From the NCBI RefSeq assembly GCF_018228765.1, contig NZ_CP073695.1, positions 930,001 through 994,000 of the forward strand: a stretch of 64,000 bases of DNA. The letters are read 5' to 3'. Position numbers and translations under genes: made by a program. This document shows, in pieces, positions 22,232-41,618 of this stretch (position 1 is the first letter of the stretch; each line of letters starts with the position of its first letter). The notes under the pieces were generated by a model that saw only the letters and a program-made list of their open reading frames with translations, had not been told where the DNA came from and did not search any database. The stretch is from Halorubrum ruber. Its GTDB lineage: Archaea; Halobacteriota; Halobacteria; Halobacteriales; Haloferacaceae.

Positions 22232-23530
22232 GTGAGGCGAACCAACACGTTCGCGATACGCCCGCTCTCCGACAACGACAAGCGGCTACTGCGGGACCTG
22301 TTGGACGCCTCTGCGAGCCTGTGGAACGAGTTGAACTACGAGCGCCGCCAGCAGTTCTTCGACGGCAAAAGCGTGTGGGACACCGCCGACTACCGGAAAC
22401 AGTATATCGATGTTCTCGGCTCTGCCACTGCACAGCAGGTCATTCGGAAGAACAAATCGGCGTGGCAGTCGTTTTTCGCCACCCACGGGAACGGCGAGGA
22501 CACCGCACCGCCGGGCTACTGGGGCAACGAGGACGACGGTAGAGAACTCCGCACGTTTATCCGCAACGACCAGTACACGCTGGAAACCGGCGAGCGGTCA
22601 CGAATCGAGATACCAGTCGGTCAAGCCCTGAAAGACGAGTACGGGCTTGGGTATCACGACCGCCTTCGCCTCGAAGTGTGTGGCGCTCCGAAATGGGACG
22701 GCGAACAGGGCCGATTGGAGATACAGTACGACGAGACAGACGACACGTTCAGGGCCTTTCAGCCTGTCACCGTACCTGATTCTCGGCAGGATTCACCACT
22801 GGCTTCTCACGAAGCCGCGCTGGACGTGGGCGCAAACAATCTCGTCGCCTGTACCACCACGACCGGCCAGCAGTACCTCTACGAAGGCCGCGACCTGTTC
22901 GACTGCTTCCGGGAAACCACCGAGGAGATTGCCCGGTTACAGTCCAAACTCCACGAGGGACGATACAGCAGTTAGCGGATTCGGCGGCTGTATCGCACAC
23001 GGACGCGACGGCGCAACCACGCACAGGACGCGCTGGTTCGAGACCTGATGGAACGGCTCTATGCCGAAGGGGTCGCAACGGTGTACGTGGGCGACCTCAC
23101 GGACGTTCTTTCGACGCATTGGTGTGCTGAGGTGAACGCAAAGACGCACCACTTCTGGGCGTTCCGGGCGTTCATCGAGCGGCTGTCCCACACCGCCGAA
23201 GAATACGGTATCACGGTCGAAGTACGGTCAGAAGCCGACACAACGCGAACGTGCCCAGCGTGTGGCGAGCAGGACGACACCGACCGGGACGGCGACGTGT
23301 TCCGGTGTCCGTGCGGTCACGAAGCCCACGCCGACCTGTGCGCGTCTCGCACGTTCCTCGACGAGCAGGCTGGCGAAGCCGTTAGGTCGATGGCACGGCC
23401 CGTGCGCCTCAAGTGGGACGACCACACCTGGTCGGAGCTATCACACTCTCCCGAGAGGGCCAGTCCCAACGAGGAGCGCACAAACCGGAGTACCGGGGAC
23501 GGGAAAGTTGCCTCTGTGGGGACAGCATAG
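22232..23530 (+). pseudogene. tnpB: TnpB-like RNA-guided nuclease with one internal stop codon
   Basis: Starts at GTG 22232 and runs to 23530 in a single frame, broken only by TAG at 22973-22975 (AGC AGT TAG CGG ATT CGG), where family members have a sense codon (probably Lys). Otherwise intact: RuvC-I Asp in [11 protein letters not shown], a second RuvC region in YVGDLTDV (Asp where most TnpB have Glu), zinc-finger cysteines CPAC and CPC, and a RuvC-III Asp in HEAHADLCA. The single-base nature suggests recent loss, or that a two-part protein is still made. Confidence 0.85.
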
Positions 23531-27629: not shown

Positions 27630-28257
27630 ACTGTTTGTTTGACAACATTAGTGGTTTCAGACAGGCCGTGTGTGCCGTGTGCGCCTCGTTCTGGCGGTTG
27701 ATCCCGTGAGCTAACCCCACTGCTCACCATAGGTGTTGCTGGACCCCAAACGTCGTGGTACGTAGTACGAGACATCCGTTGATGCGCAAGTTTGGGTGAG
27801 CAAGTGAGGGCGGCATCGCTCAACGCGTACTCGCATGACGAATCCGATCGCGTTTGCGACGCTGTCTTCGGGCGAACAAACTGCGGTTCGTGGGGCGATC
27901 CCTTGTCGTTAGGCTATGGGCATCCGTCGGATCGCTCCGTTGAGATCAAACTCATCTGACTGCTTTCTCGCTATACGATCGCGCCTGAGTATGTATGTAA
28001 TAAAGTCGAGACGTACCCGAACTCGTTGCGAAGCGAACCTACTGCCCTCAACGCGAGATACTGTCGGTTAGGGTCTCTCTACCCACTCACCGCCCGGCCA
28101 GTCGGGCCGAGTCGCTGTTGAGCAGTTCGGCTTCTATTATTCAAAACCACACGTAATCCGAGCTTACCTCCCGATTCACTCCGGGCTGGAGTTATCAGTT
28201 AGTATGGACAAGACCGAATAGTTTATTGAACGATATTTCATCTGTGTGTGTGTCCAG
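27630..28257. other. Divergent intergenic region before the tubulin-like operon
   Basis: About 630 bp with no convincing gene; frames are short and codon use poor. A TATA-like GTTTATTG (28221-28228) lies 30-37 nt before the ATG at 28258 and probably drives the operon. Lower G+C than the backbone. Short open pieces (for example around 27838-27910) may be decayed coding sequence, but I could not identify them. Confidence 0.5.
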
Positions 28258-31200
28258 ATGAATCTACCAAGTCGGATCTTCGCGGTGGGTGGCGCCGGCA
28301 AGGCGATCACCTACGAGCTGCTGGAGGCAGACTGGGTCCAAGAGTCGGTGCTCCAGCCGCGACGAAACCCGCGGTCGCTGACGGTGACCGTGATCGACAC
28401 GGCCGAAGAAGAGGAGAACAGAGATCTCGAGCGAATCCAGTCGATCAACGATTCGATTCAGGAGACAAAAAACCGGCTCCGCGAATCCGACGACCACGAG
28501 GGTCGACTCGGCGAGATCAACATCGATTACCTGCCGCTGACGCGGAACATCCAGCTCCACGATCAGAACGACCTGATCGGCGCGGAGGCGGTGCCGCGCA
28601 TCGCGGCCGGCGCCGGTATCGACGAGGAGAACTGGTGGCTCAAGCCCGAGTTCATCAACGAGAACCTCGATTTCGCAACGGGTGTCGTCAGGAAACGCGG
28701 CCTCGGCAAGGGACTCTACTACAAGTCCTACGCCGAAGACGACAGCGTCCGCACGTCGATCGACCTGCCGGACCGCGGAAAGGTCGCCGTGATCGCCGGC
28801 CTGGGTGGTGGCTCCGGCTCCGGGATCTTCATCGACTTGGTCCGACACCTCAAGCGGACGAAACGGACCGCCGAGATCACGCTGTTCGGGGTGTTGCCCA
28901 ACGACGAGGAGGGTGACGCCGAGAGCGCGAACGCCCACGCCGTCCTCTCCGAGCTGGAGTACATGAGCCTTCAGGGTGAGAACCTGTTCAAAGACCGGGT
29001 GCTCATCCCGATCGACCCGACCGGGTTCGGCGGGAAAAAGGGGAACCTCATCCAAAGTTCCGACGCGCTCGTCGAGTTCGACCGGGCGGCGATCTACCTC
29101 ATCACGTCGTACTACAACATGATGGACATGGAGGACCCGTTCGCGGACACCCCCTCGTACGCGCCGTTCATCATGGGGATCCCGCAGGTCCTCCGGTACA
29201 ACGTCGACGCCATCCAAGACGCGAAGACGGTCACCAAAGAGATACTCAACGCGAAACAGGACGCGCTGGAAGCGGAGGAGGACATCTACACGGGCGTCGA
29301 CCGGTTCCTCTCGCGGGAGTGGAGCCCCGACGAGATGGAAGGTGAGCTCCACGACTCCGACCGGACGGATCTCGAGACGCGGCTCGACAACGTGTGGTCG
29401 CTCACCGAGCTCGATATCTTCACCGAACTCGAGTACGAGTCCGTCTCCGCCTACCGCGAGATCATGTCGGAAGCGGAGGCCGAGACCGACGACATCCTCG
29501 ACCAGATCGACGTTATCGCGGGCTCGATTCGGGCGGGCACCGCCCGCATCGGCGACAACGAACAGTACGTCGATAGCATCGACAAGCAGCTGGCCGATAT
29601 CATCGACACGGAGCTCAACCGGATCGCCCACCGCAAGGACCTGCTCGTCCGGCTCCGGTCGATCGACAACAACCGCGTCGAGGGGACGATCAGCTACCTC
29701 CTCGCCGTCGAAGACGAGGGGATCAACGCCGGGGTGCGCATCAACCGCTTAGAAGCGAAACGGGACGAGGTGACCGAGCGGCGGGACCGCCTCCAGTCCG
29801 AGCTCAAAGAGGCCGAAGCCGAGCTCGACACCCGCAAGCGCGAACAGCAGGACGAGGTGGACCGCCGGGTCGCCACGTGGAAGAACGCGGTCGAGCCGCT
29901 GTATCGAGAGTACACCGACTGTCAGTCGATGGCCGTCGACGAGCTGGTCGGCGACCTCCGGAACGGGCTCGAATCCTTCGCGCGCGCCGTCGAGAACGCC
30001 GAGGACCCGGACCAGGTGGAGGCCGTCAACGACAGCACCGTCCGGACGGCGCTCGACGACATCAGCACCGAGTTCGACACGGTCGGCGTCGACACGACCG
30101 ACATCGAGCGGCGGATCAACTCCTCGCTCGCGGACCTGGCGGACGCCAAGAAGTCGTTCCTCACGATGAACGAGGAGGAGGGGACGATCGAGTCCATCCT
30201 CCCGTGGGACTCCTCGAGCGAGGAGGAACGCAAGAAGGCGGAAAAGAACTACCGCCGGAAGCGGAGTCAGCTTGACGACGCGGAGGTGTTCAAGATGTCG
30301 CGGGCGGGCAGCAACCTGTCGATCGAGGTTGAGTTCACCGTCACCGATCTGAAACACCTCATCGAGGCCGAAATCGACGAGCAGCAACAGGAGATCGTGT
30401 CGCGGACCCGGTCGGAACTCGACGAGGAACACCGGGCGGCGCTCGACGAGCTGGAGCGTGACCTCGAATCGGGGATCGGATTCGACCAGCTCACGCGCCA
30501 GTTCGAGGAGCTCGTCCGCGACGAGATCGTCGAGACCGCCGACATCGAACGGCGGCGTGACGACCTCGAATCGGATCTCGAAACCGCGGAGACGGAGGCG
30601 GATCTGTACGACGCGACCGTCACCCTGTTCGAGGAGCTGAACGGCCCCCGGGACTCGTTCCTGAGCTCCCAAGAGACGTATCAGCGGCTCCGCGAGGAGT
30701 ACAACGCCGAGCAGGACTCCTCGGTCGCGACCGAAACGGAGGAGTACAGCTACGTGAAGACGATCCAGCCGAACGACATCCTCCAGCTCCGCGACGACAC
30801 CGACATCGCCGACAGCAAGATCTTCGACGACGAGACCGAACGTCAGCGGCTGCGCGGCTCGCTCGAGGAGCTCGCTCGGAACGCCCACAACCCCCGCTAC
30901 ACCGGCATTCGGCGCCGCCGGATCAGCGGTGACCGCGCGCGGTACAACGAGATGAACGTCGTCGTCGGCGTGATGAGCCGGGCGATCGACCAGATCAACG
31001 ACGTTGCCGACCTCAAATCCGAGTTCCAGGGGGCGTACAACCTCGGTGCGGGCGGCGAAAACTACGCCTCGTTCCCGGTGAGCGCGGGTGGCAGCTGGGA
31101 TGTCGGCCTGGGGATCTTCATCGACGGGATCTTCCTGGATAACCTCCGGGCGGAGATCGAGGCCGACGGCTACCGGAATGGATACGAGTCACGGAAACAG

Positions 31201-31410
31201 TCCGACGAGACCGACATTCTCGTCCACCACGCGTACGGCCTCGACGAGGGGTACTTCGTGAAGCGCGACTCCGTGTTGAACCTCGAGCATCCCGACGACG
31301 TGGAGTTCTTCCTCAGAGACGAAGGCGAGATCAAAGCCGATCTGCTCGAGAACCACATCAGTCGAACCGACTTCGTCGCTCCCGCTGACGGGGAGGAGGG
31401 GGAGGAGTAA
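28258..31410 (+). CDS. Large tubulin/FtsZ-like protein with coiled-coil region
   Basis: 1,050 residues. The N-terminus FAVGGAGKAITYELLE corresponds to the first nucleotide loop of tubulin/FtsZ, and GLGGGSGSGIFIDLVR (GGGSGSG at 183-189) to the GGGTGTG phosphate-binding signature. These are features of the Tubulin_2-type family. From about residue 410 to 800 the chain is highly charged and helical, with long coiled coils. A conserved C-terminal domain follows (GAYNLGAGGENYASFPVSAGG). I start at ATG 28258 rather than GTG 28246. It is the first gene of an operon; the GTPase gene follows after 5 nt. Function unknown; a GTP-dependent filament or regulator is inferred. Confidence 0.8.
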   Translation: MNLPSRIFAVGGAGKAITYELLEADWVQESVLQPRRNPRSLTVTVIDTAEEEENRDLERIQSINDSIQETKNRLRESDDHEGRLGEINIDYLPLTRNIQLHDQNDLIGAEAVPRIAAGAGIDEENWWLKPEFINENLDFATGVVRKRGLGKGLYYKSYAEDDSVRTSIDLPDRGKVAVIAGLGGGSGSGIFIDLVRHLKRTKRTAEITLFGVLPNDEEGDAESANAHAVLSELEYMSLQGENLFKDRVLIPIDPTGFGGKKGNLIQSSDALVEFDRAAIYLITSYYNMMDMEDPFADTPSYAPFIMGIPQVLRYNVDAIQDAKTVTKEILNAKQDALEAEEDIYTGVDRFLSREWSPDEMEGELHDSDRTDLETRLDNVWSLTELDIFTELEYESVSAYREIMSEAEAETDDILDQIDVIAGSIRAGTARIGDNEQYVDSIDKQLADIIDTELNRIAHRKDLLVRLRSIDNNRVEGTISYLLAVEDEGINAGVRINRLEAKRDEVTERRDRLQSELKEAEAELDTRKREQQDEVDRRVATWKNAVEPLYREYTDCQSMAVDELVGDLRNGLESFARAVENAEDPDQVEAVNDSTVRTALDDISTEFDTVGVDTTDIERRINSSLADLADAKKSFLTMNEEEGTIESILPWDSSSEEERKKAEKNYRRKRSQLDDAEVFKMSRAGSNLSIEVEFTVTDLKHLIEAEIDEQQQEIVSRTRSELDEEHRAALDELERDLESGIGFDQLTRQFEELVRDEIVETADIERRRDDLESDLETAETEADLYDATVTLFEELNGPRDSFLSSQETYQRLREEYNAEQDSSVATETEEYSYVKTIQPNDILQLRDDTDIADSKIFDDETERQRLRGSLEELARNAHNPRYTGIRRRRISGDRARYNEMNVVVGVMSRAIDQINDVADLKSEFQGAYNLGAGGENYASFPVSAGGSWDVGLGIFIDGIFLDNLRAEIEADGYRNGYESRKQSDETDILVHHAYGLDEGYFVKRDSVLNLEHPDDVEFFLRDEGEIKADLLENHISRTDFVAPADGEEGEE

Positions 31411-31415
31411 CAGCG

Positions 31416-32858
31416 ATGGACTCTCCAGTCGCGTTCCTCGAGGACCACGGCGAGAAGTTCTTCCTCGGCGTGTACTTCCTCATCATGATCGTCGTCGCCG
31501 GGCCGCTCTTCCTGACGCTCGGTGAGGCGTGGATCGCGTCCGACGTGTTCCGGCCACTGATACTCTCGTTGAACCCGCTGTTGTCGGTGTCGCTCGAGCA
31601 GTTCTCCGCCATGGTGTTCGGGATCTACCTCGGCCTGCTCGCGCTGATGACGGTCGACCCGAAAAAGCGTGTTCAGGGGGCCTTGCTCTGGCTCGGCACC
31701 GGCTCCGCGCTCATCGGCCTGCTTTCGATCGGCCTGTTCATCCCGAATATTGATTTCGTCGCGAACATCGCCTGGCTCGGGGCCGGCCTCGTCGGCGGCA
31801 CGATCGTCGGCGGCGGCAAACAGCTGATGGAGGTCCGGACCACCTCCGCGCTCGAGTTCCGTCGGTCCGCGAGCATTCTGTTCTACCTGATAACCGCCAT
31901 CGTCCTCGTCGGCCTCGTCGAATTCCACGTCAACTTCCCGCAGTTCGTCGACCCCTCAGGCGGCACTGTCGAGATCATCGCGCCGGAGCCGACGGTCTCG
32001 GTCGCGTGGGGTGGGATCACCACGAACGTGCTGATGGCGGGCGTCTTCGTCGTCACGCTCCGGCGGTTCGTCACGTACGACTCCTCGGAGAACTTCTTCG
32101 TTCTCGGGCCGCCGGGGTCGGGCAAATCGCTGTTCCTCGTCGGGAAGTATCTCGCCGCGCTCGACGACGCGGTCGATCGGAAAAGCGACACGCCGCTGAA
32201 CCCGAGCGGCGACCTGATGGAGCTCGTCGGCCGGCTCGACGCCGCGACCCAAAACGCCGGTTGGGAGCTCGACTCGACGGGTGCGACCGAGGTCGAAGAT
32301 CTTCAGTTCCGGTTCGTCAACGGGCGGGTCTTCCCGAAAAACATCGAGCTGTCGAGCCTCGATTACGCCGGCGAGTATCTCGAGGAGCTTCCGGGCGCGC
32401 TGATGAGCCCCGACTCGGAGATCGACAACTCCACGGTCCAGCTGCTGTCAGACCGCGTGCGCGCGGCGAACACGCTGATTCTGGTGATCGACGTCGAGCG
32501 GTATCACAACAACGAGCCGCTGGGGATCGAGCCGTACTTCGACATCCTCGATACGGCCGACAACAAGGACGTGCTCCTCGTCGCGACGAAGTCCGATATC
32601 TTGGCCCAGCAGTTCGAAGACGAGCAGGCGCTGGACCCGCACCAGTACTTCGAGGACTTCCGGCAGTACGTGAACGACACGCTAATCGAGAACAACCAAG
32701 CCGTTCGGACGCTCGTCCAGGACACCTCCGGCGCGGAGATCCACCCGGTGTACTACGAGACGACGGTGAACGACGACGGCGAACGCGTGCCGATGCGCGA
32801 CCGCAATGGGAACGTGATGACGGTCGGCTTCGAGGAGCTGTTAGAGAAACTGGGGTGA
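31416..32858 (+). CDS. Polytopic membrane protein with cytoplasmic P-loop GTPase domain
   Basis: 480 residues. Six or seven membrane helices lie within residues 1-220. The GTPase domain follows: G1 loop GPPGSGKS (231-238), a DxxG motif DYAG (316-319), and the guanine-specificity motif TKSD (391-394). LILVIDVERYHNNEP corresponds to the beta strand before G4. A GTPase fused to a multi-helix membrane domain is unusual in archaea. It lies 5 nt after the tubulin-like gene and 6 nt before the next gene, so the three products probably act together, perhaps with this protein as the switch that couples the envelope to the tubulin-like protein. Confidence 0.8.
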   Translation: MDSPVAFLEDHGEKFFLGVYFLIMIVVAGPLFLTLGEAWIASDVFRPLILSLNPLLSVSLEQFSAMVFGIYLGLLALMTVDPKKRVQGALLWLGTGSALIGLLSIGLFIPNIDFVANIAWLGAGLVGGTIVGGGKQLMEVRTTSALEFRRSASILFYLITAIVLVGLVEFHVNFPQFVDPSGGTVEIIAPEPTVSVAWGGITTNVLMAGVFVVTLRRFVTYDSSENFFVLGPPGSGKSLFLVGKYLAALDDAVDRKSDTPLNPSGDLMELVGRLDAATQNAGWELDSTGATEVEDLQFRFVNGRVFPKNIELSSLDYAGEYLEELPGALMSPDSEIDNSTVQLLSDRVRAANTLILVIDVERYHNNEPLGIEPYFDILDTADNKDVLLVATKSDILAQQFEDEQALDPHQYFEDFRQYVNDTLIENNQAVRTLVQDTSGAEIHPVYYETTVNDDGERVPMRDRNGNVMTVGFEELLEKLG

Positions 32859-32864
32859 TCACGC

Positions 32865-34589
32865 ATGTCAACGCTACGCATCTACGACACGAAGGGGAAC
32901 GCCTACTCCCCTGATGGTACCGCGACGGGATCCAACGAGCAGATCAAAGAGCTGTTTTACGGCGGCGTTCGGCTGGCGATTCGGTCGGACCACAGACAGG
33001 AGATCAGTCTGTTCTTCCGTGCGCGTGAGTCCCGCAACGCGCGCACTGAACAGTTCTACGCCGTCTACTCCGTGGACAACTCCGCGGCGCCGCTTCAAGA
33101 CCTCATCAGCGATCTCACGACGCGTATCGAGTCCGAGTGGGGGTACACGATTGACGAGTCCTCGGACGAGATGCAGGTGTACCGCGAACTGAAACGCGGG
33201 AACACGGCCGTCCCTGGCGACAGTACGGAACAGGATATCCTCGCCGAGCTCATCACGTCCCGGAGTTCGGTGACAGTGGGTGTGTCGGACGAACGCAACG
33301 CCATCGGCCTACTCAGCGAGTACCTCGGGCAGTACGACCAAGCAGCAGTCGCCGACTCGATGGATGCGGACGTACTCTCGACGTTCGACCTCGTCGTCAC
33401 GCCGGGTGACCACCGCGGTATCACGCCGCTCGGCGCGACGGAAGAGCGGTGGGAGTCGACGTCTCGGTCCCTCCGCGACAAGCATATCAAACAGGAAATC
33501 GCGTCGATCCGCGAGTCGGTCGAGACGCTTTCGCGAGACTATGGCCTGTCAAACGGCGAAATTCGAAAGCGCGTCCAGAGTAGCGTGCCGGCGCTCAAAC
33601 CCCCTGCGACCAGCTCTAACCTCGGGTCACGAGGGACCCAGTCGGACGACGATTCGCTGCTTTCTCCGGAAGTAGGGCTGTACATCGCCATCGGGGCCGT
33701 CGTGTTGCTCGTCCTGTTCGCTGCGGTTACTTTTGGCCCTTCGCTGTTGGGCCTCGATTCCGGTGACGCGGGCGACCAATCGACCGTGTCCGGTGCGCTT
33801 ATCGATAATACGACTGGCCAGCAACTCAACAGTTCGACCGGGAACATCTCGGTTATTCTCCGCAACGAAAACGGCTTGCTGAACACGACTGACCAGCCGA
33901 CGTATAATTTCAGTGTCAACGAGACGCTGATAGCGAACGCCACTCTGGTCGCCACCGCAGACGGCTACGAGGAGCAGCGGCTGAATATTTCTGAGGACCG
34001 TCTCGGAGGGAATATCTCCCTGGATCCGACCCCACCTGCCGACGATTCTTCCGAACGCTCCCGTGTTGAGGGCGCCGTGATCGACTCAAACACCAGCGAG
34101 GGTGTCGCCGGCGCCACCGTCGTACTCACCAATAGCGACGGTGGGACCAGGGAGGCCACCACGGAGAGCGGGGGGACATACTCGTTTGAAAACATCACGT
34201 ACGGTGAGTACACGCTTTCGGCGAGTGCCACCGGCTACGTGGCGTCGGACAACCGCAGTATCAGCGTGAACAGCCCCGAAACGCAACTCGATAACCTCAC
34301 GATACCACCTCAGGCCTCGCTGTCCGTCCGTTATATCGCGTCGAACACTAATGAGTCGCTGACTGACGGCCGCGTACGCCTGATCGACAGAGAGACCGGT
34401 GCTGAGATCGACAATACAACAAAAGGCGGCAGTGCTTGGTACAACAACAGCAATGTCGATCCCGGTCAGTATACTCTTGAGTTGTCTGAACGGAGCGGAT
34501 ACGAAAATAAGAGCATCGATATTACGTTGACCCCAGGAGAGACTTACCAAACAGAGGTCACCGTCCAGTGCACGGCGGCTAATTGTTGA
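32865..34589 (+). CDS. Single-pass protein with cytoplasmic head and sequon-rich outer domains
   Basis: 574 residues. Residues 1-260 are soluble, with no family I recognise (starts STLRIYDTKGNAYSPDG). One membrane helix lies at about 270-293 (YIAIGAVVLLVLFAAV). The rest should face outside: at least three beta-sandwich units of the carboxypeptidase-regulatory type (VEGAVIDSNTSEGVAGATVV, TTESGGTYSFENITYGEYTL, then DGRVRLIDRETGAEIDN). More than twelve N-x-S/T sequons fit S-layer-type glycosylation. It ends in a Cys-containing tail. Third gene of the operon; its role may be sensing or adhesion. Confidence 0.78.
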   Translation: MSTLRIYDTKGNAYSPDGTATGSNEQIKELFYGGVRLAIRSDHRQEISLFFRARESRNARTEQFYAVYSVDNSAAPLQDLISDLTTRIESEWGYTIDESSDEMQVYRELKRGNTAVPGDSTEQDILAELITSRSSVTVGVSDERNAIGLLSEYLGQYDQAAVADSMDADVLSTFDLVVTPGDHRGITPLGATEERWESTSRSLRDKHIKQEIASIRESVETLSRDYGLSNGEIRKRVQSSVPALKPPATSSNLGSRGTQSDDDSLLSPEVGLYIAIGAVVLLVLFAAVTFGPSLLGLDSGDAGDQSTVSGALIDNTTGQQLNSSTGNISVILRNENGLLNTTDQPTYNFSVNETLIANATLVATADGYEEQRLNISEDRLGGNISLDPTPPADDSSERSRVEGAVIDSNTSEGVAGATVVLTNSDGGTREATTESGGTYSFENITYGEYTLSASATGYVASDNRSISVNSPETQLDNLTIPPQASLSVRYIASNTNESLTDGRVRLIDRETGAEIDNTTKGGSAWYNNSNVDPGQYTLELSERSGYENKSIDITLTPGETYQTEVTVQCTAANC

Positions 34590-35030
34590 GTTCACGGTAG
34601 ATAACTACAACTCCTGTGTGCGTTTTCGACCAACGATGACAACCATATTGTTCCGACACGATCTCAGCGTATGTTGTAAGCTCCGTCAACATGCCGCTGA
34701 CGCTTCACTGGTTCTCACCTCCTAGCGCCCCTATCTGCTATTTGGATGCGTCGTCTTCGGGAACTAGATCCACAGGAGACTCGATTAAAACACGACATAT
34801 CCGTTGCTCACCGTGACGTCCGCTGATGAATACACGGACTTCAGTATCCAGATTACTCCGGTCAACCCCTGTCTCGTCGGTAGCGTTCAGATAAGCTGAT
34901 CCATGCGAAGTTGAACGCTACCTTCACGACCGCCGTGGTGTTCCTGATGTAGGGGAGCGGCGGCGTAAATCGGCTCGTTGTGGCCGTCTTCGCTGGCGGT
35001 CGGCGGCCGGTCGCGGTGCTCCGCGCGGCG
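34590..35030. other. Noncoding or decayed region after the tubulin-like operon
   Basis: About 440 bp with no intact gene. A minus-strand piece near 34885-34970 (IRNTTAVVKVAFNFAWISLS) looks like the C-terminal fragment of some protein, possibly a transposase, but I could not assign it. Composition is similar to the rest of the island. Confidence 0.4.
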
Positions 35031-35942
35031 CCGCGGGGACCTCGATCCGCTCGACGATGTCGTTCACCACGGTCGTAGGCGAGGTGTCTTGGACCGTCGC
35101 CTTCGAAGTCAACGCGAGCCGGTTGACGAACGCGTCCGCAACGACGGCCTTGACGTCGTCGAGCGGGACGTACTCCCGGCCGTTCACGAGCGCCCGCGCC
35201 CGGCTGGCCTCGAAGAGGCGCTTGGATGCCGCGCGGCGACACCCCGACCTCAACCCGACCGTCAGCGCGGGTCGCCTCGCCGAGCGTGATCATATAGTCG
35301 CGGAGCGACCCGCCGACGGTCACGCGCTCCGGAACGTCCTGAAAGCGCGGGACGGTCTCGCCGTCGATGACCCGATTCAGCTCCGGAGCCCGAGCCGTGC
35401 GGTCGTCCCACCGGTCGAGGACCGTTCGTATCCCCTCGCCGTCGGGGGATCCGAGTGTCGCCTTCATGATGAACCGGCCGCGCTGCGCCTCCGGAAGGGC
35501 GAACGTTTCCTCCTGTTCGACCGGATTCCGCGTCTCGATGACGAAGAACGGGTCTTGGAGCTGGTAGGTGGTGCCGTCCGCCGAGACCTGCCCTTCCAAC
35601 ATCGCCTCGAGCAGGGCCGCCTGCGTCTTCGGCGGTGCGCAGTTGATCCCGTCGGCCAGCACGACGTTCGCGAAGATCGGGTCCCTCCGCGAACGCGAAC
35701 TCGCCGGCCTCCTCGCGGTAGATATGCGATTCGGTAATATTCGACGGTAGCAGGTCCGGCGTGAACTGGCCGGTTGAAGAAGAGTCCGAGCACCGTCGCA
35801 AAGCTCTACGCCGTGGGGATTTTTCCGGTGCCGGAGACGTCCTCCAAGAGCACGTGCTCCCGGGACAACACGCCGGTGAGGACGGTTTTGATGACCGACC
35901 GGCCGACAAGGCGACGTCCGATATCGTGTCGATGCCATCACC
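35031..35942 (-). pseudogene. Decayed MoxR-family AAA ATPase
   Basis: Pieces of one MoxR protein are spread over at least three frames on the minus strand. They are VIKTVLTGVLSREHVLLEDV (P-loop region, ending SGTGK but then broken by a stop), FTPDLLPSNITESHIYREEA, the long middle PPKTQAALLEAMLEGQVSAD...ETRNPVEQEETFALPEAQRG, and the lid LVNGREYVPLDDVKAVVADA. Walker B reads LADGINCAPP where DEINRAPP is expected, so the catalytic Glu is lost as well. It was probably once functional here, perhaps with the neighbouring GTPase operon, since MoxR ATPases often serve as chaperones for adjacent systems. Confidence 0.85.
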
Positions 35943-36205
35943 GTACCCGCTGCTGCGTCACCGACAACCATACGTCTCCCTCCCGGGCACCCTATTTTAT
36001 CCATCCAACATCTCAACACAGGTGCCAAACTCGGAATCGGCGCCGACCGTGGACCGACTCTCGGACGTAGCGGCCGCGGGACTCCGTGCGTCAGCACCCC
36101 CTCGGGACGCGGTTCGGGGAAACGCGCCGTGTAAAGCGACGTATGTTACCGCGTGCCAGTATCGTTATCTGCGAGCGGCGCCTACGTCCGCGCGGTGTTA
36201 CACAT

Positions 36206-38221: not shown

Positions 38222-38278
38222 CGACGAGCGCGGCGGCTCACAAGTCGCGAAAAATCGGCGAACGGCTCGGGCAGACTC

Positions 38279-39652
38279 CTACTCGTTCAGCACGCTCGAC
38301 CACTGGCTGGTGTACGTCGGCTGGTTCGGCTCGAAGGAGACGCGCTGAGTGATCGTCCCGTCGCGCTCCTGGAACGCGTTCACGTACGCCTCCTCGAGCG
38401 ACTGCCCGTAGGCGTCGTTGAGGTACAACGTCCCTGAGCTCTCGGCGCCGACGTTGTCGCCCACGGCGAGGTCCGCCATCGCGGGCCCCTGGAGCAGGTC
38501 CGAGGGCGCGGTCCGGAAGATGTAGTCGTTGTCGTCTAAGTCCGTCACGTTCGGGTCGGTCGAGGACGGGGAGATACCGACGACGCCGTTCGGGATGAAC
38601 ACCTCGTCCGCGACCTGGAGGTTGACGTTCGAGGAGGCCGGGCCGACGACGGCGGCGAAGCCGGCGTTGACGAGGGCGTTCGCGCCGGAGATACCGGCCT
38701 GCGGGTTGGTCTGGGTGTCCTCAACCCGCGTCTCGACATCGACGTTGAGGCCGGCGTCGTTGACCTGCGTCGCGGCCAGCAGCGCCCCGTCGCGGATCGG
38801 ACCGCCGAGCGGCCCGAGGTCGCCCGTCTCCGGCATCAGCACGCCGATGCGAGCCGTGAATGAGTCCACGCCGACGGGCTCGGCCGCGGTCGCGTTCCGG
38901 TCCTCCTCGGTGAGGTCGTTCCCGAACTCGACGGTGTCCAGGGTGACGAGCTCGCCGTCTTGGAAGTCGATGATGTCGTAGGCGGCGGTGGCCATGTCGC
39001 CGTTGACATCGAAGTTGACGCTGGAGGACGCGCCCACGTACTGGACAGGGTCGCCGGCGGCGACCGTCTCGACGGCCTCGGGGAGGTCCGCGGGACCGAA
39101 CTCCTCGCCGCCGGGGTTGGCGACGGTCCGGACACGGTCGCGGATCGCCGCCCCGTCGTTCTCGCCCGCGGCGGTCGCCGCGAGGATCTCCACCGCCATC
39201 GCGTCGAACGCCTGCGAGGTGAACACGCCCGGTTCCTCGCCGTACTCCTCCTGATACGACTCCGCGAAGAACTCCGCGCCGGGGCCGCCCGCGGAGGGCG
39301 CGGTGCCGATGACGTTGTTCATGTCGTTGTCGACCTCGCCGGGGAGGTCGGCGTCGATCAGCCCGTCGGGGACGATGATGTCGAGGTCCGGCGCGCTGTC
39401 GGCGAACTCCGAGTAGAAGTCGCGGAACAGCTGAATGCCGGACTGCGGGAAGCCGACCACCATCACGGCGTCGGGGACGTCGGAGCCGTCACCGCCGTCG
39501 CCGCCGTCGCTTCCGTCGGAGCCGTCACCGCCGTCGCCGCCGTCAGAGCCGTCGCTCCCGTCGCCGCTCTCCGTCGAACAGCCGGCGAGCCCCGCGATTC
39601 CGACCGCTCCGGCGCCCCTGAGTACGTCGCGTCGCTGGATTCTTCGCGTCAT
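38279..39652 (-). CDS. Branched-chain-type substrate-binding lipoprotein with swapped (circularly permuted) lobes
   Basis: 457 residues. A Tat-type lipoprotein signal (RRDVLRG, lipobox LAGC with Cys25) and a Gly/Ser/Asp linker are normal for haloarchaeal binding proteins. The order after it is not. Residues 60-245 (DAVMVVGFPQSGIQLFRDFY) are what normally forms the second half of a LivJ-type (Peripla_BP_6) protein. Residues 266-457 (TARIGVLMPETGDLGPLGG ... YGQSLEEAYVNAFQ) are what normally comes first, ending SSVLNE at the natural hinge. A new linker joins them. No permease or ATPase genes are adjacent. Confidence 0.85.
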   Translation of the reverse strand: MTRRIQRRDVLRGAGAVGIAGLAGCSTESGDGSDGSDGGDGGDGSDGSDGGDGGDGSDVPDAVMVVGFPQSGIQLFRDFYSEFADSAPDLDIIVPDGLIDADLPGEVDNDMNNVIGTAPSAGGPGAEFFAESYQEEYGEEPGVFTSQAFDAMAVEILAATAAGENDGAAIRDRVRTVANPGGEEFGPADLPEAVETVAAGDPVQYVGASSSVNFDVNGDMATAAYDIIDFQDGELVTLDTVEFGNDLTEEDRNATAAEPVGVDSFTARIGVLMPETGDLGPLGGPIRDGALLAATQVNDAGLNVDVETRVEDTQTNPQAGISGANALVNAGFAAVVGPASSNVNLQVADEVFIPNGVVGISPSSTDPNVTDLDDNDYIFRTAPSDLLQGPAMADLAVGDNVGAESSGTLYLNDAYGQSLEEAYVNAFQERDGTITQRVSFEPNQPTYTSQWSSVLNE

Positions 39653-39860: not shown

Positions 39861-41518
39861 TCAGTACCCCTGCGCGTTCCCGTCTTTCCGGGGCTCGGTG
39901 GCGGCCGACAGGACCCCGTCCCGGTTCCGGGCGATCTGCGCGCCGCCGAACATGACCGGCGAGAGCGTCCGCACGTCGTGGTCCTTCCGGACGAGCTTCG
40001 CCGCGGCGTCGTCGTCGAAGTGCGGTTCGAGCCCCAGTTCGCCGCTCTCGCGGTAGCGCCACCGCGGCTCGTCGAGCGCACGCTGGAGCGGCATGTCGTA
40101 GTCGACGATGTTCGAGATCACCTGGACGTGGCCCTGCGGCTGCATGTAGCCGCCCATCACGCCGAAGGCGGCCCAGTCGTCCTCGTCGAACCGAACGACG
40201 CCCGGGATGAGCGTGTGGAAGGGGCGCTTGCCGGGTTCGAGACTGTTCGGGTGCTCCGGGTCGAGCGAGAAGGACGCGCCGCGGTTCTGGAGGGCGATGC
40301 CGGTGTCGCCGGCGACCAGGCCGGAGCCGAAGCCGGCGAACCGCGAGTTGATGTAGGAGACGACGTTGCCCGCGTCGTCGGCGACGGTGAGGAGGACGGT
40401 GTCGGCGTCCTCGGCGTTCGCGTTCGGCACGCCGAAGGAGACGTCGTGCGAGGCGGTCTCGCCGACGCCGGCGGCGCGCTCGGCGGCCCACTCGCTCGAC
40501 GCGAGCGGCGGGACCTCCTCGTACTCGGGTCGGTGATGTAGCGGTGGCCGTCGTGGAAGGCTCTCTTCAATGCCTCGGCGAAGTAGTGGACGCGCTCCGG
40601 CGAGTCGTAGTCGTACTCGCCCGCACCGAGTTCGGCGGCGACGTTGAGCGCCTCTAAGGCGATGAGCCCCTGGTTGTTCGGCGGGAGCTCGTACACCTCG
40701 GCGCCGTTGTAGGTGGTCGACACCGGATCCGGCCACTCGACCTCGAAGTCGGCGAGGTCGTCGACGGTCATGAACCCGCCCTGCGACTGGACCTCGTCGG
40801 CGATCGCCTCGGCGATCTCGCCCTCGTAGACGACATCGGCGCCCTCCTCGGCGATCTTCCGCATGGACTCGCCGAGCCGCGGGAGCGTCACCGTCTGCCC
40901 GACGTCCGGCGGCTCGCCGTCGAACAGGAACGCCTCGCGGGCGTGGTCGTCGGTGAACAGCGCGTCGGCGCTCGCCCAGTAGGAGGCGATGACCTCGGAC
41001 ACCGGGTACCCCTCCGTCGCGTAGCGGATGGCCGGCGCGAGCGCGTCCGCGAGGCTGAGCCGGCCCAGCTCCTCGACGGTCGCCTCCCAGCCGCGCGCCG
41101 TCCCGGGGACCGTGACCGCGTGCGGGCCGTAAAAGGGCATCCCAGCCTCGCCCGCGTCGTCGACCGCGTAGCCGCCGTCGTCGGGGTAATAGGAATCGGC
41201 GTCGTCGTCCTCGGCGAGCGCCGCCTTGACGTTCTCGATCGTCGCGTCCGCGGGCGCCCCGCCGCACGAGCGCATCGCGCCGACCTCGCCGTCGGCGGTC
41301 CGATACAGTGCGAACACGTCGCCCCCGAGCCCGGTCGAGGTGGGCTCGACGACGTTGAGCGCGGCGGCGGTCGCGACCGCGGCGTCGAACGCGTTCCCCC
41401 CCTCGCGGAGGACTTCGATCCCCGCCTCGCTCGCGAGCGGCTGACTGGTCGCCACCACGCCGCGCTGGCCGTACACGGTCGACCGGCGCGACGTGAATCG
41501 GTCTAAGTCTGGCTCCAT
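39861..41518 (-). pseudogene. Gamma-glutamyltransferase with one frameshift
   Basis: N-terminal nucleophile hydrolase of glutathione-type metabolism, acting on gamma-glutamyl compounds. The first 330 residues are in one frame (VVEPTSTGLGGDVFALYRT, ALAPAIRYATEGYPVS) up to HRYITDP. The rest continues in another frame from EYEEVPPLASSEWAAERAAG, through DADTVLLTVAD (probable catalytic Thr in DTV) and NSRFAGFGSG, to GGYMQPQGHVQVISNIVDYD. The shift is at about 40526-40533, where CCCGAGTAC stands for an expected CCCGGAGTAC. It may be a sequencing error; apart from that the protein looks functional. Confidence 0.88.
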
Positions 41519-41618
41519 ACGAACTCGTCCGGCGCGCGAGTGAATAAAGCCCCGACCGGATGTGTCCGGTGTCGGTCCGCCGCGGTCGGCGGGACACGCG
41601 GCTGCGACCGCGGACTGC

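Follow-up and report, generated by a model that had tools for sequence, protein, structure and literature searches.

The 64,000-nucleotide stretch of Halorubrum ruber DNA analyzed here (the window) carries, at 38279..39652 on the minus strand, a gene whose translation, Pfam matches and homologs mark it as a LivJ-type substrate-binding lipoprotein of 457 aa with its halves in exchanged order. This raises the question of whether such a gene is real and functional and, if so, how the exchange came about and which system the protein serves. The explanation that we favor, and regard as highly probable, is that the gene encodes a functional lipoprotein that acts, in circularly permuted form, as the substrate-binding component of a Liv-type (HAAT) ABC importer, and that it most likely originated by duplication and trimming at the liv locus.

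Order of the halves and position of the cut

The protein begins in the manner of a Liv/HAAT importer binding protein, with an export signal and a lipid anchor. The Tat-type signal and lipobox (MTRRIQRRDVLRGAGAVGIAGLAGC, Cys25) occupy 39578..39652 on the minus strand, where the twin arginines and the LAGC motif can be read directly, and the lipid cysteine is followed by a low-complexity Gly/Asp/Ser tether (39479..39577, minus strand), both as given in a preliminary description of this DNA. Next comes the C-terminal half of the family (PDAVMVVGFPQSG to DTVEFG; 38918..39478, minus strand), which comprises the second part of lobe 2, the second part of lobe 1 and the last strand. An internal linker of about 20 residues, ending in LTEEDRNATAAEPVGVDSF (38858..38917, minus strand), then joins the old C-terminus to the old N-terminus, and it resembles the N-terminal linkers of nearby normal-order genes. 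The N-terminal half of the family is placed last (ARIGVLMPETGDLG to YTSQWSSVLNE; 38282..38857, minus strand) and contains, from ARIGVLMPETG to SSVLNE, the first part of lobe 1 and the first part of lobe 2.

That the C-terminal half precedes the N-terminal half, as first proposed from the letters, is confirmed by Pfam, structure and profile alignments. Two stretches match Pfam PF13458 (Peripla_BP_6), and the better of them aligns residues 267-454 with profile positions 2-186, so that the beginning of the family profile is found at the C-terminal end of the protein. Against the solved structure 3td9, residues 210-396 of the mature part correspond to 17-199 and residues 63-126 to 265-328. A profile of permuted relatives behaves in the same way (202-395 on 13-202, and 3-123 on 205-328), and a profile of normal-order relatives is collinear with 3td9 (4-309 on 17-322). 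For the C half, the permuted and normal profiles match at probability 100, and each half reaches up to 66% identity with normal-order homologs. Sequence homology to Peripla_BP_6 and the type I (cluster B) substrate-binding proteins (SBPs) covers both lobes, and the N-to-C order of elements in LivJ is replaced by a circular permutation of it. Judging from this homology, the permuted protein would retain the type I two-lobed fold; AlphaFold2, given only the window protein and 23 to 24 close Halorubrum/Halohasta orthologs, returned a model of low confidence, with a mean pLDDT of 36.9.

The position of the cut is of particular interest. In an alignment with 4n0q and LIV-BP it maps to about LIV-BP residue 194 (4n0q about 202), eight residues before Tyr202, the LIV-BP numbering having been transferred from 4n0q by a step of our own. 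Lobe 1 of LIV-BP consists of residues 1-120 and 249-328, and lobe 2 of residues 121-248 and 329-344 (PMC13103812). The cut therefore lies inside lobe 2, in a helix-to-strand loop and not at the hinge, and both exchanged halves consequently hold parts of both lobes. The original view of two swapped lobes with their boundary at the hinge has to be abandoned on this point, since the exchanged halves are not the lobes. The Thr and Ser of the SPSST motif are invariant, this Thr being Thr102 of the LIV-BP pocket (positions from PMC13103812). Asp96 occupies the position of Glu226, and an aromatic residue stands at the position of Tyr202. These pocket positions are conserved and now lie in a different order along the chain, the aromatic residue being taken as ligand-contacting. 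In the type I fold, the loops leading from helix to strand point away from the cleft, and the new N-terminus with its lipid tether would thus be expected on the side of lobe 2 remote from the cleft.

Distribution, probable recurrence and proposed route of the permutation

The same arrangement was looked for in related genomes and found there. Permuted homologs in Halorubrum and Halohasta are collinear with the window protein at 71-94% identity (about 50% elsewhere), and homologs collinear over the full length are present across Halorubrum and in numerous further haloarchaeal genera, which excludes chance or a bad join as the source of the order. In a sample with each species represented by one genome, the family was matched in 214 of 292 haloarchaeal genomes, and at least one permuted copy was counted from the table in 126 of the 292. 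Matches at E <= 1e-60 in a phylum-wide profile search were confined to genomes of the window's order, and viral contigs, scanned to deepen the alignment, contained no relatives. One permuted gene (L158:5271-7871 in G030) is broken by an insertion of about 1.4 kb.

Permuted and normal-order genes alternate at the same liv locus, and three lines of evidence bear on how often the order has changed. The first is a binding-protein tree of 64 rows, obtained by a careful search from halves that had been aligned one by one and then restored to one order. In this tree, normal-order genes divide the permuted ones into four groups, giving four changes; one permuted clade was recovered in 0 of 200 bootstrap trees and is rejected by the AU test (p=0.029). 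The N-half tree joins the window clade to the normal-order genes L125-L139 with a support of 100; the C-half tree is poorly resolved, and there the grouping of the window clade with normal-order genes, when imposed, was preferred. The second is a concatenated LivF-G-M-H tree of the same loci, which implies 3-4 changes, 3 of them forced by supported branches, and rejects one permuted clade (AU p=0.0009, under a simpler model with long branches left out). With the roots of the trees resting on distant normal-order genes, a history of gains only takes 4 steps. Third, the internal linker of the window clade (PVGVDSFTARIGV) is like the N-terminal linker (PAGVDDGYEVKLGI) of the normal-order gene L137, and the internal linkers of the other groups carry GR-T/E-I motifs, as do the N-terminal linkers of other normal-order genes. 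Such group-specific linkers point to recurrent permutation, which we consider likely from these comparisons. A chimera, with its C half and N half drawn from different lineages, was also considered because of an apparent difference in the C-half tree and set aside, as a better likelihood was obtained with the window clade held together with its normal-order sisters.

The alternative of one ancient permutation, followed by several reversions through duplication and trimming or by displacement by normal-order genes, deserves consideration. The cut is identical across all permuted groups of the first kind, one origin is not rejected by the N half alone (p=0.127) or the C half alone (p=0.35), and both orders coexist in some genomes, so that material for replacement exists. 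In addition, the type B gene described below indicates that a permuted gene can undergo permutation again. However, one gain would have to be followed by 9 losses in the binding-protein tree or 6 in the transporter tree, as against 4 gains, the transporter tree rejects a single permuted clade, and the internal linkers vary by group in step with the N-terminal linkers of their own normal-order neighbors. On balance, we think a single ancient event unlikely and keep recurrent permutation as the preferred reading.

A query made of the halves in the order N-C-N exposed a second kind of permutant (L179:6170-7501 in G633), of which G625 holds a 90% identical copy. Its order is signal, N half from residue 32, C half joined normally (ALSDDPDTL), linker, N residues 1-30 and stop. 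The cut lies in a helix-to-strand loop of lobe 1, a short stretch (GEI / EIG) is shared by both ends, and this gene also faces LivF-G-M-H. Since it is nested deep in the largest permuted group of the tree, it represents an already permuted gene that was permuted again. In one genus, permuted genes stand in head-to-tail pairs beside one liv operon (L094 in G159 and L190 in G577), and the pairs are orthologous between these two genomes. No fused intermediate, of the N-C-N or the four-half form, was found among the matches listed for the 391 genomes searched with the N-C-N query, and no half-gene remnants were seen around the examined loci except for the tandem pairs and one interrupted gene.

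Tandem duplication with loss of the outer halves, the origin first suggested for this gene, has gained ground: duplication, fusion and trimming is the most plausible route because of the tandem pairs, the nested second permutant and the internal linkers resembling old N-terminal ones. In this scheme, a normal-order binding-protein gene would have been duplicated head-to-tail at the liv locus, and the tandem copies would have fused and lost their outer halves. The old C-terminus would thereby have been linked to the old N-terminus through the old N-terminal linker. New ends would have opened in the lobe 2 helix-to-strand loop, eight residues before the ligand-contacting aromatic, and the lipid tether would have moved from lobe 1 to lobe 2, where tethering may bring a benefit. 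A fuller version of this history, which could equally well hold or fail, has at least 3-4 independent permutations at the same lobe 2 loop and a re-permutation with a second cut in lobe 1. The process would be ongoing, each event passing through tandem duplication beside the liv operon and being favored by the change of the tethered lobe.

Transporter linkage and integrity of the gene

With few exceptions, at the inspected loci of either order, LivF-LivG-LivM-LivH lie tail-to-tail with the binding-protein gene, about 1-5 kb downstream. The window gene has no adjoining transporter genes. An intact LivHMGF operon is present in the same genome at C1:837131-841150, 131 kb off, and its LivF, LivG, LivM and LivH are 91%, 89%, 82% and 90% identical to their Halorubrum counterparts. 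Relative to H. trapanicum, H. xinjiangense and H. sodomense, the inversion breakpoints fall at C1:837131 and at about 968225 (window about 38225). The latter lies 57 bases past the coding region; window positions 38225..38281 comprise the stop codon and the breakpoint just past it. The orientation of the liv operon is reversed, as expected from a single 131-kb inversion, and H. distributum (L051) has the same downstream arrangement and junction as the window side. The absence of Liv genes from the window is thus explained by a rearrangement that moved the operon away. Most likely, given the homology and this gene order, the permuted protein still serves LivHMGF. Its predicted ligand class is an amino acid or amide, which it would deliver to LivHM, both ligand and transport being read from homology and gene order.

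It was at first suggested that the gene may encode a free-standing sensor. Such a protein, or a component of a chemotaxis receptor released from service to a transporter, might be suspected because transporter genes are lacking next to it in the window, and archaeal binding proteins can serve taxis, which makes this role possible in general. But LivF-G-M-H lie directly downstream in H. xinjiangense (L052), H. sodomense (L055), H. trapanicum (L059) and other close relatives, and the same operon is intact in the genome itself; between them, these observations remove the basis of the sensor idea. No conserved neighboring signaling gene was seen, and we consider this role very improbable beside continued service to the importer.

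Both halves of the gene are under purifying selection and functional, as shown by dN/dS values of 0.21 for the C half and 0.23 for the N half, with 0.33 for the linker (15 orthologs, 105 pairs). An assembly join or a decayed duplicate, which a frameshift in the adjacent gamma-glutamyltransferase gene might bring to mind as a sign of base-level or decay problems nearby, is refuted by the same order in those 126 independently assembled genomes, by full open frames and by these ratios, and its probability is negligible.

The gamma-glutamyltransferase gene itself (window 39864-41560, minus strand) adjoins the binding-protein gene upstream and is frameshift-split at about 40526-40529. It is intact in the H. 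distributum, H. sodomense, H. trapanicum and H. lipolyticum loci, and the frameshift could reflect either a recent pseudogene or an assembly base error. Elsewhere in the window, a MoxR-like ATPase region (34862-36097, minus strand) extends, as seen by eye, across the overlapping ORFs 34862-36097, 34924-35253 and 35262-35909, which suggests that it is split by another frameshift. Three consecutive genes at 28246-34589 (plus strand) encode a 1054-aa Tubulin_2-like protein that matches only over its first approximately 240 residues, a 480-aa membrane protein that carries a P-loop (GPPGSGKS) and lacks Pfam matches, and a 574-aa protein in which carboxypeptidase-regulatory and PEGA-like domains are present; the trio looks like an uncharacterized cytoskeletal or surface system. 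Finally, a 247-aa ORF at 22232-22975 (plus strand) resembles, by eye, a truncated IS200/IS605-type TnpB.

Significance and comparison with known binding proteins

The usual view of natural circular permutations is one of single, ancient events between proteins that are only distantly related. In the present case, orthologs with and without the permutation occupy the same locus beside orthologous transporters, with up to 66% identity per half, which makes a side-by-side comparison possible and provides a natural experiment on protein rewiring. At one site the order has apparently been altered several times, at another a single time, and tandem copies persist in one genus; the route of permutation and its reason, such as the position of the lipid tether, are therefore directly testable. 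These observations are also of practical importance, since tools that expect collinear domains will misread the permuted gene in about 40% of the sampled haloarchaeal genomes.

Both halves of the permuted protein are homologous to the branched-chain amino acid binding proteins of the LivJ/LivK type (PF13458; HAAT; 1usg, 1z15, 3td9, 4n0q), with which it shares the pocket motifs, the character of a lipoprotein of a Liv-type importer and the LivHMGF partner genes. Unlike them, it has exchanged halves, ends inside lobe 2, an extra internal linker and a lobe 2 tether. A further comparison is offered by normal-order orthologs such as L125, L127 and L131, which have the same liv locus layout, the same transporter and 53-66% identity per half, but retain the normal N-C order and carry no internal linker. 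A literature search, in which subscription journals were sparsely covered, yielded no paper on circularly permuted Liv-type or haloarchaeal binding proteins.

A naturally permuted type I SBP has been described in Treponema pallidum, where TpMglB-2 (Tp0684), designated 'Type Ic / Cluster Bc', is a membrane-tethered glucose binder of an ABC importer with a crystal structure and demonstrated ligand-induced closure; the type is found in treponemes and Gram-positives (PMC4990184). In TpMglB-2, which is cut in the N lobe, the first strands of that lobe have moved to the C-terminus and the order of the C lobe is untouched, and its authors suggested that the permutation might be an adaptation to tethering (PMC4990184). 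This idea could well be tested on the haloarchaeal tether, which shifts from lobe 1 to lobe 2. Both proteins are natural circular permutations of a type I SBP and in principle work alike, but the haloarchaeal protein is cut at about LIV-BP residue 194 in lobe 2 and is Liv-type, not a sugar-binding MglB homolog. Since neither the defining cut nor the family of TpMglB-2 is matched, it represents a separate variant, distinguished from TpMglB-2 by being archaeal, Liv-type, cut in lobe 2, provided with a second cut site and apparently recurrent.
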